Position numbers and translations under genes: made by a program. The notes under the pieces were generated by a model. The model was not told the DNA's origin. It ran no database searches and saw nothing but the letters and a program-made list of their open reading frames with translations. A stretch of 35,941 nucleotides of DNA from Pirellulales bacterium (GTDB taxonomy: Bacteria > Planctomycetota > Planctomycetia > Pirellulales > UBA7805). Shown in pieces: positions 24,126 through 32,623 of the stretch; within the stretch, counting starts at the first letter, position 1, and every line of letters begins with the position of its first letter. Location of the stretch: contig JASMGX010000015.1 of the NCBI GenBank assembly GCA_030751095.1, forward strand, positions 1 to 35,941, written 5' to 3'.

Positions 24126-25082
24126 TTAGTTGTCTACCGCCTGCTGCTCATAGGCTGTGCGATAGTAGTCAATGCTTTTAGCAATACCCTCTTCAAAGGC
24201 GACTTGTGGTTCGTAGCCCAATTGTCGGCGTGCGGCAGAGATATCAGCAAGGCTCTCGAGAATATCGCCGGGTCGCGGGTCGGTAAACTCTGGCTTTACA
24301 TCGGTGTCGAGATATTTATTGAGTACCGCAAGCATCTCCAACAGCGTCACGCTACGACCGGCAGCGACATTGAAGCTTTGGCCGGCCACGCCCTCGGCAT
24401 CGGCGGCAAGAAGATTGCCATGCACCACGTTCTCAATAAACGTGAAATCGCGAGATTGCAATCCATTGCCAAAAATCACCGGTTGGCGATTTTCAAGGAT
24501 GGCGGTGATGAACAGCGGAATCACTGCAGAGTAAGGACTATCCGGATCTTGTCTCGGGCCAAAGACATTGAAGTATCGCAAGGCAACGGTTTCAAATCCG
24601 TAGGTAGCCGTGAATGCGTGACAATAGTATTCTCCGGCAAGCTTGGCGGCACCATAGGGGGAAATGGGATCGGGTACATCGGCTTCGCTTTTTAAACTGT
24701 TCGATTTGTCTCCATAGAGACTGCTCGACGCGGCATAGACCAATCGCCGCACCCCGGCCCGACGGGCAGTATCGAGCAGAGTGACGGTTCCAGTCACGCA
24801 GGCCGCATTCGTGTCCAGCGGCGCTTCGACGCTGCGTGGGACCGATGCCAGGGCCGCTTGGTGGAACACGCAATCGACCCCTTCGACCGCTTGGGCCACA
24901 GCATCTGCATCAAGTACATCGGCTTCGATGAACTCTACAGAATCGGCGATGTGCGCCAGATTGCTCCGATGGCCGGTACTGAGATTATCCAAAACCCGGA
25001 CTCGGTCGCCTCGCTCGACTAGGGCCGTTGCAATGTGGGAGCCGATAAATCCAGCACCTCCGGTGACAAGAAAAGTACGCAT
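24126..25082 (-). CDS. NAD-dependent sugar epimerase (UDP-glucose/UDP-GlcNAc 4-epimerase type)
   Basis: MRTFLVTGGAGFIGSHIATALVERGDRVRVLDNLSTG; SSSLYGD; SPYGAAKLAGEYYCHAF (YxxxK); RYFNVFGPRQDP. Confidence 0.93.
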   Translation of the reverse strand: MRTFLVTGGAGFIGSHIATALVERGDRVRVLDNLSTGHRSNLAHIADSVEFIEADVLDADAVAQAVEGVDCVFHQAALASVPRSVEAPLDTNAACVTGTVTLLDTARRAGVRRLVYAASSSLYGDKSNSLKSEADVPDPISPYGAAKLAGEYYCHAFTATYGFETVALRYFNVFGPRQDPDSPYSAVIPLFITAILENRQPVIFGNGLQSRDFTFIENVVHGNLLAADAEGVAGQSFNVAAGRSVTLLEMLAVLNKYLDTDVKPEFTDPRPGDILESLADISAARRQLGYEPQVAFEEGIAKSIDYYRTAYEQQAVDN

Positions 25083-25307
25083 TCGCAGGATTTCCTTCAG
25101 GTCGGTTTGTCTCGAGAAACAATATTTTGAGGGGATTGGGACCAATCACCGTAAAGGACGCAGCCTCTACAAGTTTACGTGGGGGATGGGTGTTTGTCAT
25201 CCCAGGCCAGAAAGGGTCTGTGGCGATGCAACATTTACCGCAGTGAAGAGGTGCTCCAGAAGAGGTTTCGGAGCAAAAGGAGTTGGTCACCGCTCCACTC
25301 TCTCCGC

Positions 25308-26150
25308 TCAAGCGGTATTCGTGGCGGGTAATGTCGTGATGCAGCCGATGGGTGTTCCGCCCCAGGCCATAATTTGACGGTGGGTGCTTTTGGCCCAGCT
25401 TACAGATGTCAGAGCAAGCCGCAGGAGAAACAACGCTCCTCCCGAAAAAAGTGTAAGCTGATGGAGGGTTTCTCGATTCACGTTGCCACCATCGATAACA
25501 ATCAAACCAAAATGTACATTCATCAGTTCCAATTGGCTTTGAAAATCTGATTTCAAGATGGATGGTTTTCCTAGCGAGAGTGGCATCAGACAGAGGCCAG
25601 GATGGTTCGTTTGTGTGATCGAGCTTTGCCAGTCGTTGTTGGATTTTGTAGGCCGTTTTGTTGCTGTCCGTCCAAAACCATGGAAATATTTTTTGAGTCG
25701 TCCGTCGCCCGCGTCGATCGCAAGGACCGGATCCTCACTGATTTCAGCCAGAGCGACCAGCAATTGTCCTAGAATGTCGACCGTATCGGAATATCCATCC
25801 TCAGAGAGCAACAGTAGCGGGCCTGCCGTTTTGGGAAGGTGCGCAAGTAAGTTGTGGCACGTGCGGTGATACTCATTTTCCGGTGCAGGTGCAGATAGAA
25901 ACTGCGGCGATTCACCGAATCGATGGAGAGGCGCATCAACAGTAGGTGCTGCGGAACGATCGAGAGGCAGTTGGCGTGCAGCTTTGGTGACCGCCTGCTC
26001 GCCACAAAATTCCGGTTTTTCGGAGAGGCCGGGCGACTGGGCCTCTACAGGCAAAGCTTCCGTTGGCTCCTTTGCCCTGCCGGCACCGGTCGCGGCAAAC
26101 GCCGCTGCCTCGGTTTCCACCTGTTTGAGCACGTCATTGAGTTGCATCAT
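25308..26150 (-). CDS. BY-kinase/CpsD-like protein with degenerate P-loop
   Basis: EYHRTCHNLLAHLPKTAGPLLLLSEDGYSDTVDILGQLLVALAE...PVLAIDAGDGRLKKYFHGFG...HFGLIVIDGGNVN follows the order of BY-kinase blocks, but SEDGYSDT replaces GEGKST. Confidence 0.72.
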   Translation of the reverse strand: MMQLNDVLKQVETEAAAFAATGAGRAKEPTEALPVEAQSPGLSEKPEFCGEQAVTKAARQLPLDRSAAPTVDAPLHRFGESPQFLSAPAPENEYHRTCHNLLAHLPKTAGPLLLLSEDGYSDTVDILGQLLVALAEISEDPVLAIDAGDGRLKKYFHGFGRTATKRPTKSNNDWQSSITQTNHPGLCLMPLSLGKPSILKSDFQSQLELMNVHFGLIVIDGGNVNRETLHQLTLFSGGALFLLRLALTSVSWAKSTHRQIMAWGGTPIGCITTLPATNTA

Positions 26151-27718
26151 TGCGGATATCCACTCTCCGCCAGAAACTGCGAAGAATTTGGAGTGTTGCA
26201 GTCGTAGAGTCTGGCCAACAAATCCCGATAGTCACGTTGTCGCACCGGAATCATGGGATGCTCTCGGATCTCGGGCCATGGCTTTTTCTCTGCCGGAGAC
26301 TGCAGAGAAAGCGCATCTGCCAATATGTGTTTCTCGACCGTCTCTTCAGGCAATGACCCGGAGACATCGGTCGCCTCAAGCGGCTCGCTCGGCTGCATCC
26401 GACCGGTTGCCGTTGCCTCGAACGATTCGTTGGGAAAGTTTGCAATGCCTTCCGGGGCGCGCTCGCCAATGTCCAATCTACCCTCGGGGGCGATTTGTAT
26501 GATATTGTTCGCCTCCACCCCTACGAATTGGTCAATCGTGATCTTTTCGCAGCAAGGCACTTCGCTGTGCGCGGGCGCTTCGGTTGCGTCTGCCGGTAGT
26601 TCGGTCTGTTCGAAAACAGCATGCTCGGCAGCCTCTATGGGTGCGGCAGTCTTTGCGCCCATAGTACGATCCACAGGTGATTCGGTTTCGGTATCCAATT
26701 CTGTGCTTGGAGAAACGTCTAGAGGAGTGTCGGTGATTTCAATCGCCGCGCTTTTGCCGATAGCGCCATCAATTTGCACGGGGTCTGTTTCCATTTCTGC
26801 AACGGCGACCGAATCTCCATCAAGGCTGCCAAACTCGATAACGGCTGTGTGGGTCTCTGGGTTTTGATCCTCGCTGGAAGCGACCGTGCCACTGCCGGTC
26901 GGCAGAGGAAGCTGCTGCAAATCTGCCCAGGCAGCATCGATTTCGCTTTCTGTTAGCTGCCTGCAAGACGTGCTGGCCGCTAAAACTAACGCCTGATCGC
27001 AAAGTTGGTTGATCAATCGTGGACAGCCAGTCGCATGCCGGTGGATTGCCCGCAGCGCGGTGTCATTCCATAGTTGGTCGGGGTCTGCGCCAGCACCGGC
27101 CGTTTGTGCCCGTACATATTCGCTCGATTCCTTTGCGGTGAACGGTTCGAGATAACAGCGGGCGGAAATCCGTTGATTGAAAGAAGCCATTCTCGGTTGT
27201 GCAAAGCGCTCTTCGAGTACCGGCCCGCCCGCCATGATCAAACGGATCCGGGGATTTCCATTCCGCACCATATTGGTAAGCAGTCGCAATTCTTCAAATA
27301 AACGAGGCGGCATCGTATGGGCTTCGTCGGCGATTAGCAAGATGCCGTTTGGATGGGCCCCTTCCGGATGCAGGTGGTCAATCAGCGAGAGTCGCAATTC
27401 GCCTTCTTGAAGGCGGCGATGGGGGGCTCCTAATTGATACAGCAGGGCTTGAAGAAGTTCTTTGCAGGTGGTCAATCGCAGGTTGGCCAAAAGCAGCGGA
27501 GTTAACTGGCCAGAAAAATGTTCCGCCAGCACCTCACAAAGAAGGGTCTTCCCCATACCGGTTGCCCCGATGAGGAGTCCACATCCCTCGGCCCGTTCGA
27601 TACAGCGGGTTAGTTTGCTCCTGGCACTTTCAATGGCTGCAGCAGGAAAATAAAGACTCGTTTGTGGCGCAGCAAGAAAAGGACGTGAGGAAAATCCAAA
27701 AAAAGACTCGTACATCAT
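26147..27718 (-). CDS. ExeA/GspA-type AAA ATPase with long acidic C-terminal extension
   Basis: MYESFFGFSSRPFLAAPQTSLYFP, GLLIGATGMGKTLLCEVL, ILLIADEAHTMPPRLFEELRLLTN, CPRLINQLCDQAL. Confidence 0.9.
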   Translation of the reverse strand: MMYESFFGFSSRPFLAAPQTSLYFPAAAIESARSKLTRCIERAEGCGLLIGATGMGKTLLCEVLAEHFSGQLTPLLLANLRLTTCKELLQALLYQLGAPHRRLQEGELRLSLIDHLHPEGAHPNGILLIADEAHTMPPRLFEELRLLTNMVRNGNPRIRLIMAGGPVLEERFAQPRMASFNQRISARCYLEPFTAKESSEYVRAQTAGAGADPDQLWNDTALRAIHRHATGCPRLINQLCDQALVLAASTSCRQLTESEIDAAWADLQQLPLPTGSGTVASSEDQNPETHTAVIEFGSLDGDSVAVAEMETDPVQIDGAIGKSAAIEITDTPLDVSPSTELDTETESPVDRTMGAKTAAPIEAAEHAVFEQTELPADATEAPAHSEVPCCEKITIDQFVGVEANNIIQIAPEGRLDIGERAPEGIANFPNESFEATATGRMQPSEPLEATDVSGSLPEETVEKHILADALSLQSPAEKKPWPEIREHPMIPVRQRDYRDLLARLYDCNTPNSSQFLAESGYPQ

Positions 27719-28621
27719 TTAGCTCCATGGAAGTTTTACGAGGTGTCGCACAGCGTCAGCTAACGCGGAGACAGGTTGGCTGAGAAAATGGTTGGCAAAA
27801 CTTTTGTCGAGCACAGATGCCAAAAGGACGGCAAGGAGCATCCCGCACAGAATCCATTCGCTCATCGATAACAAGACGTCAAACAATTGTGATCGGGCCG
27901 CTGGCGGACTTTGCCGACGTGGATTTGATTCCCCAATGGTTCCTAGCAGCGGTACTTTCCAGAAGGTTTTGGCCATCTGGTTGGTCTCGACCGTGGCAGT
28001 TCGGCCGTTACTGTATACGGCGCAAATCGCGGCTATCACACCGGCAAGACTGGCCGAAAGAAACGTGACTAAAGGGGTGGTGCGGTATGTTCGCTCGGTG
28101 CTCGAGGCGGGAACGATGTGCCAGGCGGTTTCCCCAATCGCGATCTCTTGGGCAAAGGCACGATTTTCAAATCGCTTACAAGTCAGCCAGTTGCCAAGAT
28201 GGTTGACAAAAGCGATGGAGGTGTCGGGATTGTTGCTGGTGAACGAAAGAGAAAAATTGACAAAGAGGGGTGTGGAATCGGGCTGTATTCGAAGAGCAAC
28301 TTGGTCCCTTAACCGCGCTACATCGAGACTCTTTGCGCCAGGGATGCCATCCCGACACAAATCGGCGGCGGTCTGCTCGAGGGGAAGCGCGCGACAGATT
28401 GTCTGCTGTAGGCGCAATCCGTCAGACCAGGGGTTTTGTCGGTTGCTGCAGACCGCCGTCAATTGTGCTACGGCGACAAACCGATCTGAATGCAGTCTGC
28501 CAAAAGCCAATACCAGCAGAAACGCTGCCAAACCGAGTGTGATGGCAATGTATCTGCCGCTCCGCTGCGGACTATGTTTGTCCGACAGATGCCGTTTTGT
28601 TTTCGATCTGCTAGCAGTCAT
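27719..28621 (-). CDS. Wzz/PCP-like polysaccharide chain-length determinant protein without fused kinase
   Basis: N-terminal TM; NNPDTSIAFVNHLGNWL; RTTPLVTFLSASLAGVIAAICAVY (second TM); linker FWKVPLLGTIGES; a third TM (ILCGMLLAVLLASVL) where a kinase would begin. Confidence 0.7.
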   Translation of the reverse strand: MTASRSKTKRHLSDKHSPQRSGRYIAITLGLAAFLLVLAFGRLHSDRFVAVAQLTAVCSNRQNPWSDGLRLQQTICRALPLEQTAADLCRDGIPGAKSLDVARLRDQVALRIQPDSTPLFVNFSLSFTSNNPDTSIAFVNHLGNWLTCKRFENRAFAQEIAIGETAWHIVPASSTERTYRTTPLVTFLSASLAGVIAAICAVYSNGRTATVETNQMAKTFWKVPLLGTIGESNPRRQSPPAARSQLFDVLLSMSEWILCGMLLAVLLASVLDKSFANHFLSQPVSALADAVRHLVKLPWS

Positions 28622-28868: not shown

Positions 28869-29540
28869 ATGTTTCAAGTCAAAATTTGTGGTATCCGCGA
28901 TGTATCGGATGCTCAGAGTGTGGCTGCGGCGGGTGCCGATGCGATCGGCCTCAATTTCTATCCCGAGAGTTGCCGCTACATATCGATGGAAACGGCAGAA
29001 GAGATTGTCGCGAGCTTGCCGAACGGTTTGGCCCGTGTGGGGCTCTTTGTCAACGCCACGGATGACGAAATCTGCCAGCGCTTTGATCAGTTGGGACTCG
29101 ATTTTATCCAGTTGCACGGCGATGAGCCGCCGGAATTTCTTTTGAGTTTGGGGGGGCGGCCGGTGATCCGTGCCTTCCGGCTCGGGCCGAGTGGTCTGAG
29201 GCCAATGGTTGACTATCTCGATGCCTGTCGATTGCCGGAGGTTAATTTGCAGGCACTTCTGATCGATGCGTACCATGAATCGGCCTATGGAGGGAGTGGC
29301 ATGGTGGCGGATTGGGATCGCTTGCAGTCGGAGCGCGAACTTCTTGAGGGGCTGCCGTTCATCCTTGCCGGGGGACTGACCGCAGAGAATGTTGCCGAGG
29401 CGGTAGGCACTGTTCGTCCCGCTGCGGTCGACACCGCTAGCGGTGTCGAAAAAAGCCCCGGCAAGAAAGATCCGGAGATGGTGCGAAAGTTTGTTACGGC
29501 GGCCCGCCGCGCATTGAGATCTGTCACTGAAGGACCCTAG
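28869..29540 (+). CDS. trpF: Phosphoribosylanthranilate isomerase TrpF
   Basis: FQVKICGIRDVSDAQSVAAAGADAIGLNFYPESCRYIS; VGLFVNATDDEI; FILAGGLTAENVAEAV; AAVDTASGVEKSPGKKD. Confidence 0.95.
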   Translation: MFQVKICGIRDVSDAQSVAAAGADAIGLNFYPESCRYISMETAEEIVASLPNGLARVGLFVNATDDEICQRFDQLGLDFIQLHGDEPPEFLLSLGGRPVIRAFRLGPSGLRPMVDYLDACRLPEVNLQALLIDAYHESAYGGSGMVADWDRLQSERELLEGLPFILAGGLTAENVAEAVGTVRPAAVDTASGVEKSPGKKDPEMVRKFVTAARRALRSVTEGP

Positions 29541-29698: not shown

Positions 29699-29750
29699 GT
29701 CGGCAATTTGCCTGGGATTAGTGTACATATGTATAGAATTGGAGTTTGTT

Positions 29751-31085
29751 GTGTCGCAAGTTGAAACGAACGCGTTGTCGCACAAGGTTGTCGACTGTTC
29801 GCCGGAGGAATTTCAGAATTTGGCGGATTGGGGCCGTAAAGAGATCACTCTTGCCGAAAATGAAATGCCCGGTTTGATGGCGCTGCGAAAAAAATATGGT
29901 GCGACAAAACCGCTAGAGGGCGCGCGGATTGCCGGTTGCCTCCATATGACCATCCAGACGGCGGTTCTCATTGAGACCCTGCTCGAGTTAGGGGCTGAGG
30001 TCACCTGGAGCAGTTGCAATATTTTTTCGACACAAGATCATGCTGCGGTGGCAATCGCTGCGGCCGGTATCCCGGTCTTTGCCTGGAAGGGGATGAGCGA
30101 GGAAGAGTTTGATTGGTGTATTGAACAGACTCTTGTGTTTCCGTCCGGCAAACCGCTGAACATGATACTCGACGATGGTGGCGATTTGACGGCGATGGTC
30201 CACCAGCGTTTCCCCCAATATCTTGCCGAGATCAAAGGGCTGTCTGAGGAGACAACGACCGGCATCAAAGCGCTCTATAAGATGCATCAGGCGGGCGCGC
30301 TGAAGGTCCCGGCGATCAACGTCAATGACTCGGTCACCAAGAGCAAATTCGACAACCTCTATGGTTGTCGCGAATCGCTCGCCGACGGCATCAAACGGGC
30401 TACGGATATAATGATCGCCGGCAAAGTTGTGGTCGTGGCGGGTTATGGTGATGTCGGCAAGGGTTGTGCCCATTCCATGCAGCGGTACGGTGCCCGTGTG
30501 ATCGTGACTGAAATCGATCCGATCAATGCACTGCAGGCGGCGATGGAAGGTTTTGAAGTGATCACCATGGATGAGGCAGCTTCGCAGGGAAATATTTTTG
30601 TGACAACCACCGGCAACCGCGATATTATCACCGGAGCCCATATGCAGGTGATGAAAAATGATGCCATCGTCTGCAATATTGGCCACTTCGATCTCGAAAT
30701 CGATATGGCCTGGCTCAACGGCCAGGAGGATGTCGAATTGGTGGAGATCAAGCCTCAGGTCGATCGTTACACGTTCCCCGATGGCCACTCCATTCTGGTG
30801 CTCGCGCAAGGGCGTCTGGTGAACCTTGGTTGTGCAACCGGCCACCCCTCTTTTGTGATGTCAAATTCGTTCACCAACCAGGTTCTTGCTCAAATTGCGC
30901 TTTGGACAGAATCGGAGAAGTACGATATTGGCATCCATGTGCTCTCCAAAAAACTTGACGAGGAGGTGGCCCGTCTGCATCTGGAGCAATTGGGGGTCAA
31001 GCTCACCAAGCTGACACCCGAGCAGGCGGAGTACATCAACGTACCGGTCGAAGGCCCGTTCAAGCCCGAATATTATCGCTACTAA
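29751..31085 (+). CDS. ahcY: Adenosylhomocysteinase
   Basis: [76 protein letters not shown]-terminal [11 protein letters not shown] start at 29751 with GGAG 6 nt upstream. Confidence 0.97.
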
Positions 31086-31288
31086 GGATGATTTCGGCGC
31101 CATACAAGCGATCTGGCCCAACGGGTCAGCGCTGCGGGCCGGTATCGATTTGCCAGCCGGGGGTTTGACAACAAAACGGGGCTTCGGGATAACAACTCGC
31201 AGCCTGGTTTTTTGGTGACGCGCGGTGCCCGGAAGCGCACCAGGCCTAGTCGGTTCTCTGTTTCTTTGCCCTCAACCATGAAACGGTC

Positions 31289-32623
31289 ATGCCTAAAATT
31301 GAAGCCTTTGCCGGACTCCGCTACGACCTCGGCCACGTCGGCGCGTTGAGCAATGTCGTGGCTCCCCCTTACGACGTGATCGATCCTGCGATGCAGGATA
31401 GGCTTTACAAAAAACACCCGGCCAATGTTGTCCGGCTGATTCTCAACCGGACCGAACCGGGTGATGATGAACATGAAAATAACTACGCCCGCGCAGCACG
31501 CTTTCTTCGCAATTGGCAGCAGGAAGGGGTCCTTTTTCAGGAGCCCGATCCGGCGGTCTATGTCTACCATCAAATTTTTGAGCAGGAGGGTCATTCCTTG
31601 ATCCGCCGAGGTTTCATGGCCCGCTGCGGACTCGAACGGTTTGGTGAGGGGAATATCTATCCGCACGAAGAGACGATGCCCGGTCCGAAAGCGGATCGCC
31701 TGAAACTGACCCGCGCCTGTGGGGCCAATCTGAGCCAGATCTTTGGCCTCTACCCGGACCCGGAATCCGAAGTCCAGGAGATTTTGGAGGAGGCTGTCCG
31801 AGGCGAAAGTCCCCTTGAGGCGACCGATGAATTAGGAGTCATTCACAGGATCTGGCCGATTACCGATGTGGCCGTTCTGAGCCGGTTGACCGCGGCCACC
31901 GGTCCCAAGCCGATGTTTATTGCCGATGGCCACCACCGGTATGAAACGGCCTGTAATTATCGGGATGAACTGGCTGCAGCGGGGAAATTGGGGCCGACAG
32001 ATCCCGCCAATGGTGTTTTGATGATGTGCGTCGGGATGAATGATCCGGGTCTGATCGTCCAGCCGACGCATCGCCTGTTCCGGGGCCTGCCCGAGTTGAG
32101 CGCCGAGGAACTGGCCGAGACGCTGGGCGACCATTTTTCGACGCATGTTGTTGGTGAGGGGACCGGGTTGGCAGAGAGGGTCTGGGAGGAGATAGAGACG
32201 GAAAATAGCCAGGGAACGATCGGATTATTTACAACCAAAGACCAGCGATGGACGCATGCGCGGATTACAGACACCGGCTCCGAGCGGATGGCTCAGCTGG
32301 CGCCGGATCACAGTCCCGACTGGCGGGAGTTGGGGGTGAGTATCCTACATCGGCTCATCGTTGACGACCTTCTCCACGCCGCCGGACACCCCAAGCCGGG
32401 CTACGTCCATACGGTTTCCGAGCTGGTTCAGGGGCTCAACGAAAATAGTGAGCCGGGGGGTGCGGGCGAAATCAGTGAGCCGTACCGCTTGGCGGCCCTG
32501 GTGATGCCCGCGACGATCGAGCATATCCGGAAGATCAGCGAACATGGTGAGCGGATGCCTGCCAAGAGTACCTACTTCTATCCCAAGCTGCTTGCCGGGC
32601 TCGTGATTCACGCCCATCATTAG
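31289..32623 (+). CDS. DUF1015 family protein
   Basis: FAGLRYDLGHVGALSNVVAPPYDVIDPAMQDRLYKKHPANVVRLILNR; ADGHHRYETACNYRDEL; HPKPGYVHTVSELV. Confidence 0.85.
   Translation: MPKIEAFAGLRYDLGHVGALSNVVAPPYDVIDPAMQDRLYKKHPANVVRLILNRTEPGDDEHENNYARAARFLRNWQQEGVLFQEPDPAVYVYHQIFEQEGHSLIRRGFMARCGLERFGEGNIYPHEETMPGPKADRLKLTRACGANLSQIFGLYPDPESEVQEILEEAVRGESPLEATDELGVIHRIWPITDVAVLSRLTAATGPKPMFIADGHHRYETACNYRDELAAAGKLGPTDPANGVLMMCVGMNDPGLIVQPTHRLFRGLPELSAEELAETLGDHFSTHVVGEGTGLAERVWEEIETENSQGTIGLFTTKDQRWTHARITDTGSERMAQLAPDHSPDWRELGVSILHRLIVDDLLHAAGHPKPGYVHTVSELVQGLNENSEPGGAGEISEPYRLAALVMPATIEHIRKISEHGERMPAKSTYFYPKLLAGLVIHAHH

Follow-up and report, generated by a model that had tools for sequence, protein, structure and literature searches.

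An ExeA-type ATPase encoded between a PCP-like membrane protein and a BY-pseudokinase in Pirellulales

Contig JASMGX010000015.1 of the Pirellulales bacterium assembly GCA_030751095.1 (positions 1 to 35,941, hereinafter the window) carries three contiguous genes for a membrane protein resembling polysaccharide co-polymerases (PCPs), an ExeA-type AAA ATPase, and a stand-alone protein with the fold of bacterial tyrosine kinases (BY-kinases) that has neither a canonical P-loop nor a Tyr-rich tail. The trio is an old, order-wide module that probably helps to control surface polysaccharide export. Our best reading, drawn by analogy, places it among the stand-alone, phosphorylation-independent PCP/BY-pseudokinase modules exemplified by EcpK/EpsV and HfsB/HfsA, with an ExeA ATPase in addition. 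To the more specific view, that Pirellulales have here their own version of the XrtA/PEP-CTERM trio, detached from exosortase and polysaccharide-assembly genes and maintained on the chromosome as a module by itself, we give about an even chance.

Textbooks present phosphorylation by BY-kinases as the switch that governs capsule and exopolysaccharide (EPS) co-polymerases, and to our knowledge no more than two pairs with a pseudokinase have been investigated. The literature yielded nothing on the trio locus in planctomycetes, in keeping with the view of the first-pass annotation of this DNA that the system is under-described.

Results

The kinase-like protein

Searched alone, the kinase-like protein of the window matches no Pfam or NCBIfam family. 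Combined with 25 relatives in a profile, it matches BY-kinases of solved structure, namely BceF, VpsO, CapB, Etk and Wzc (best E=5.6e-24), and comparison of the family profile with Wzc of its own and related genomes gives E=1.8e-17 (hhalign). Residues ~90-280 of its AlphaFold model mostly have pLDDT values above 80, and the best PDB matches returned by Foldseek are the kinase domains of Wzc, Etk, CapB, VpsO and BceF (E ~1e-7 for Wzc, Etk and CapB). At the P-loop position the protein reads LSEDGYSDT where Wzc reads SSPLPNEGKT, and its C-terminus lacks a Tyr-rich tail; both hallmarks of an active BY-kinase, a GxxGxGK[ST]-type P-loop and a Tyr-rich tail, are thus absent. By this anatomy it is a BY-pseudokinase, presumably unable to bind ATP, and the first-pass annotation was right to call the kinase dead.

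Across the order, the Walker A lysine is retained in 10 of 68 kinase-like homologues and lost in 58, and a Tyr-rich tail is found in none of the 68, the ten with an intact P-loop included. The first-pass annotation had named homologues encoding an active kinase within a standard Wzy/Wzz locus as evidence against its reading; even these ten lack the Tyr tail, and no obvious Wzy/Wzz locus surrounds the four of their loci that were inspected, the neighbours being partly annotated. Mapped on the ExeA tree, the P-loop state changes at least four times, with at least ten losses if the lysine is never regained, and presence of the kinase gene changes 16 times, indicating repeated loss; these counts are rough, since the tree was built quickly and many of its branches are weakly supported. 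BY-kinase catalysis has been discarded repeatedly while the proteins were retained.

The ExeA-type ATPase and its C-terminal peptide

The central protein of the trio contains an AAA_22 domain (63 bits, cut-off 27), and its best NCBIfam match is TIGR03015, the XrtA/PEP-CTERM-associated ATPase family (138 bits, cut-off 324.5); a PDB search with it gave no match. Both its Walker A motif, GATGMGKT, as the first-pass annotation had reported, and its Walker B motif, LLIADEAH, are intact. At a threshold of E<=1e-50, 272 of 297 Pirellulales genomes encode ExeA, normally in single copy, and our order-level survey comprises 105 distinct loci, part of which were chosen by the kinase-like gene. The Walker A lysine is kept in 101 of the 105. 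The remaining four are one truncated gene and three congeners of the window (loci L025, L027 and L030 of G009, G005 and G006), in which isoleucine or valine replaces the lysine (GPTGSGIS, GPSGSGVS and GPTGTGIS) and the DEAH box is still present. These congeners are three separate metagenome-assembled genomes (MAGs), and their genes group in a single starred clade of the ExeA tree. The truncated gene belongs to the sister genus (L031, 6047-6260, G002); its P-loop-bearing N-terminus seems to be missing, which may be a MAG assembly artefact.

After the low-complexity tail, the C-terminus of ExeA ends in 89 of 102 order-level loci with (Y/F)-R-Q-L-F-A/S-x-L-R-R-G, a motif expected about zero times in shuffled tails. 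It can be written (Y/F)RQLFA(R/K)LRRG-COOH, represented by the peptide YRQLFARLRRG, and in many cases an acidic stretch, D-LIVVEDDP, comes before it. A neighbouring kinase does not account for it, since the motif is equally common where the kinase is absent (24/28) and where it is present (61/69), and LFxxLR tails also occur on ExeA proteins from other orders of the class. In the congeners without the Walker A lysine the motif is eroded beyond the YRDLLARLY of the window. The peptide looks like a docking peptide for a conserved partner.

Four further ExeA-like proteins encoded in the same genome, on the short contigs C161, C59, C131 and C147, were considered as paralogous modules and rejected, each lying beside a transposase-like protein of 460-485 aa. 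Every one of these contigs (L104-L107) combines the ATPase gene, the adjoining transposase-like gene and a third small gene, and they probably represent a diverse family of ExeA-dependent mobile elements, the transposase identity being suggested by gene layout.

The PCP-like protein

Profile comparison and gene order make it quite likely that the first protein is PCP-like. The window protein, which has no family match on its own, is predicted to span the membrane at residues 25-43, 184-202 and 249-267, with ~140 residues between the first two transmembrane (TM) segments. It is 84% identical to its counterpart in the congener G007 and 29-36% identical to those of other congeners. The short form occurs only in the window's genus; sister-genus homologues (L028, L031) reach 480-530 aa and have a lengthy segment separating TM1 from TM2. 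Comparison with genuine PCPs gives weak profile matches, for the wider family over 53 columns (E=1.9e-6) and for the genus-level family over TM2 and an LLxVPLLGxL linker (E=7e-4); TIGR03007 is likewise matched weakly by some of the order-level homologues. A structure model was too poor (pLDDT 60) to guide identification; it had no PDB match, and its Foldseek matches were meaningless. In one sister-genus protein (L028, 3210, G003) the first TM segment seems to be missing, which may likewise reflect MAG assembly.

Gene layout and distribution

Positions are those of the window, and the trio and the downstream epimerase gene all lie on the minus strand (Table 1). The PCP-like open reading frame (ORF; 28621-27719) stops with TAA and the ATG of the ATPase begins at the adjoining base, 27718, with the second ATG, at 27715, probably being the conserved start; an ATGA at 26150-26147 is shared by the ATPase stop and the kinase-like start (4-nt overlap). 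The coordinates and junctions of the first-pass annotation are correct for all three genes, and its proposal that they are co-transcribed is supported. It had also listed a sugar epimerase after the three genes: the gene does lie downstream, but its ORF, first given as 24126-25145, starts at the ATG at 25082, the start position in a congener, leaving 225 nt after the kinase-like gene and placing the epimerase outside the overlapping set. An epimerase is also found downstream in 33 of 83 order-level loci.

Table 1 Features of the trio locus and its neighbours
Feature	Position	Strand	Remark
PCP-like membrane protein, 300 aa	27719..28621	-	Short form without long periplasmic arm
ExeA-type AAA ATPase, 523 aa	26147..27718	-	AAA_22 domain 43-172 and ~250-aa low-complexity tail
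ExeA Walker A GATGMGKT, residues 51-58	27545..27568	-	Intact
YRDLLARLY, residues 497-505, degenerate ExeA C-terminal peptide	26204..26230	-	Motif comparison
Stand-alone BY-pseudokinase, 280 aa	25308..26150	-	Helix near N-terminus (4-23), disordered region (24-90), domain with kinase fold (93-280)
Site of lost kinase P-loop, SEDGYSDT, residues 116-123	25782..25805	-	PNEGKT in Wzc
Nucleotide-sugar epimerase, 318 aa, NAD-dependent, TviC/GalE-like	24126..25082	-	225 nt downstream of kinase-like gene
trpF, divergent neighbour	28869..29540	+	Synteny anchor, outside the module's function
sahH and DUF1015 genes	29721..32623	+	Remainder of synteny anchor

The order of the trio is kept in G007, whose proteins are 84-75% identical to those of the window, and in whole families of Pirellulales, and it is therefore not a product of chance. 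Of 10 genomes in the family of the window, 8 have a match to the kinase-like gene, and wherever contigs are long enough it occupies the same position, next to trpF, sahH and a DUF1015 gene. Co-occurrence of the three genes thus extends far beyond a single genome; its absence elsewhere is what the first-pass annotation had named as a refutation of its reading. Blastopirellula marina DSM 3645, a cultured member of the order, carries the module as well (L160), with a dead kinase P-loop and an intact one in ExeA. A kinase-like gene directly follows ExeA in 67 of the 95 loci with enough DNA; because part of these loci had been chosen by the kinase, the fair figure is that for loci found by ExeA alone (38/56). 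Directly upstream of ExeA, a PCP-like protein with 2-3 TM segments is encoded in 53 of 89 loci by a rough hydropathy count, and trpF or sahH lies divergently upstream in 51 of 77. Outside the order, one locus (L256) has a kinase-like gene without a P-loop beside ExeA. The divergent arrangement of trpF, sahH and DUF1015 genes relative to ExeA is unusually stable, being kept across many Pirellulales families even after loss of the partner genes.

Selection and genomic context

Between the window and G007, the ratio of nonsynonymous to synonymous substitution rates (dN/dS, NG86) is 0.21 for the PCP-like gene, 0.26 for ExeA, 0.40 for the kinase-like gene and 0.09 for the epimerase gene, with YN00 giving higher values than NG86 for ExeA and the kinase. 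The ATPase domain of ExeA alone gives 0.135, and ~0.06 between two of the congeners without the lysine, G005 and G006 (dS ~2, rough). Because these values indicate purifying selection, the sequences point to a maintained module with relaxed constraint on the kinase and the ExeA tail.

The scanned ORFs of the window have no match to a flippase, polymerase or glycosyltransferase family, and the genes flanking the trio, where a family match exists, are housekeeping or unrelated. The remark in the first-pass annotation that no exosortase or polymerase lies nearby is accurate for the window. Elsewhere in the genome, contig C42 (L098) carries exosortase, Wza, Wzc and EpsI-like genes in a cluster, the canonical exosortase-linked export locus of this genome, and its 798-aa Wzc has an intact NEGKT P-loop and a YYTYGYGYG tail. 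Since C42 carries exosortase, Wza and an intact Wzc, the window trio is additional to the canonical system; co-location with the exosortase locus was rejected, the two lying on separate contigs.

Discussion

We propose an inner-membrane location for the PCP-like protein, on whose cytoplasmic linker the pseudokinase would dock as a scaffold. As has been suggested for EcpK/EpsV and HfsB/HfsA, it would steer the assembly of the PCP-like protein independently of phosphorylation. ExeA may be the constant core, with its own ATP cycle in most species, tethered through its C-terminal peptide to a conserved partner other than the kinase. The substrate would be a surface polysaccharide, possibly the product of the Wza/Wzc/exosortase locus elsewhere in the genome. 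We infer both the role of ExeA and the glycan involved. In the window's genus the system appears further simplified, with a short PCP and, in sister species, an ExeA without its lysine, seemingly leaving a largely structural complex. A bolder formulation, possible but doubtful, is that of an ExeA-centred membrane module uncoupled from polysaccharide loci, in which BY-kinase catalysis was lost many times and one clade has become a nucleotide-independent scaffold without canonical P-loops, held by the class-wide ExeA C-terminal peptide.

Several points weigh against a role in polysaccharide export. Within the window, the epimerase gene is the sole polysaccharide gene close to the module, and in the few relatives inspected no other is obvious. 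By sequence the identification as a PCP is weak, and the predicted structure is uninformative. ExeA also persists at loci in which the kinase-like and PCP-like genes were not identified (28 of 95 loci are without the kinase, and outside the order most loci lack these partners), so it may do something else. ExeA could then be the true unit, a class-wide ATPase with a docking peptide and no part in polysaccharide export, to which PCP-like and kinase-like proteins were added in some lineages. Its homologues are indeed class-wide (E<1e-30 in 250 of 298 genomes), mostly without a kinase, and the LFxxLR tail is conserved across the class and where the kinase is absent; set against this, the majority of Pirellulales loci place ExeA beside PCP-like and kinase-like genes and its best family match is the EPS-linked TIGR03015, and we consider this explanation rather unlikely.

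The trio might instead be a decaying relic, an ancestral EPS-control system eroding stepwise from the kinase to the PCP arm and then to ExeA. The short PCP confined to the window's genus, the dead kinase, the congeners lacking the ExeA lysine, the fast evolution of the kinase and the ExeA tail (dN/dS up to 0.4-0.6) and the 16 changes in kinase gene presence would all fit such a course. Yet every dN/dS value is below 1 (NG86), reading frames are open in all congeners, the ATPase domain remains strongly constrained after loss of the lysine (~0.06-0.1) and ExeA is retained nearly throughout the order, which makes erosion an unlikely account. Least probable by far is the model of the first-pass annotation, in which ExeA takes over the nucleotide switch from the dead kinase. 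An intact ExeA P-loop is indeed present in the window and at 55 of the 58 loci whose kinase is dead, but the lysine is equally conserved where the kinase P-loop is intact (10/10) or the kinase absent (28/28), so no pattern of compensation emerges, and its loss in three congeners that also have a dead kinase contradicts a general rule.

The order provides a natural series in which the kinase is live, dead or missing while ExeA stays near-constant, with one clade in which both P-loops are lost. Because such a series exists, the contributions of phosphorylation and of ATP hydrolysis can be tested by comparison.

Comparison with known systems

The XrtA/PEP-CTERM trio, to which the first-pass annotation had related the module, has the same adjacent components, namely the TIGR03007 chain-length determinant, the TIGR03018 tyrosine autokinase and the TIGR03015 ATPase, and the best NCBIfam matches of the wider families support the relation: the ATPase matches TIGR03015, the kinases with a retained P-loop match TIGR03018 and the PCPs match TIGR03007. 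The Pirellulales proteins nevertheless fall far under the cut-offs, the best relatives scoring 172 of 324.5, 71 of 230.65 and 29 of 278.85 bits for TIGR03015, TIGR03018 and TIGR03007, respectively, and the kinase-like and PCP-like proteins of the window itself not matching TIGR03018 or TIGR03007. The Pirellulales module also lies away from exosortase, glycosyltransferases and polymerase, and its kinase is mostly dead and without a Tyr tail. Judged by cut-offs and by locus, the window trio falls outside the XrtA group. The Wzc encoded on C42, whose kinase domain is homologous to the window pseudokinase, differs in being a single PCP-BY-kinase protein with intact P-loop and Tyr tail, adjoining Wza and exosortase. 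As for the type II secretion ExeA/GspA, an AAA_22 domain with Walker A and B motifs is common to both, whereas residues 180-523 of the window ExeA match no Pfam peptidoglycan-binding domain and GspB is absent from the annotated neighbours of ExeA.

EcpK/EpsV of Myxococcus and HfsB/HfsA of Caulobacter are non-canonical PCP-2/BY-pseudokinase pairs in which the pseudokinase is a proposed scaffold (PMC12004946). They share with the Pirellulales module a stand-alone BY-kinase fold without Walker motif or Tyr tail, and the PCP free of a kinase domain that accompanies it there (PMC12004946) has a probable counterpart in the PCP-like membrane protein. In Pirellulales, by contrast, an ExeA ATPase is encoded between the two genes, the PCP-like protein has a third predicted TM segment and, in the window's genus, a short periplasmic part, and the window module is not in a Wzx/Wzy locus. 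An ATPase in such company is found in the promonan locus of Sphingomonas LM7, where the gene for the AAA+ ATPase PrmE lies beside Wzz and BY-kinase genes and deletion of prmE abolishes EPS (PMC11340318). There, too, AAA+ ATPase, Wzz-type and CpsD-type genes stand in a row (PrmE-PrmF-PrmG; PMC11340318), but the kinase is annotated as genuine and the EPS locus is complete; the likeness of PrmE to the window ExeA is one of description. Taken with PrmE and the XrtA loci, the trio points to ExeA-like ATPases as general parts of polysaccharide machinery.

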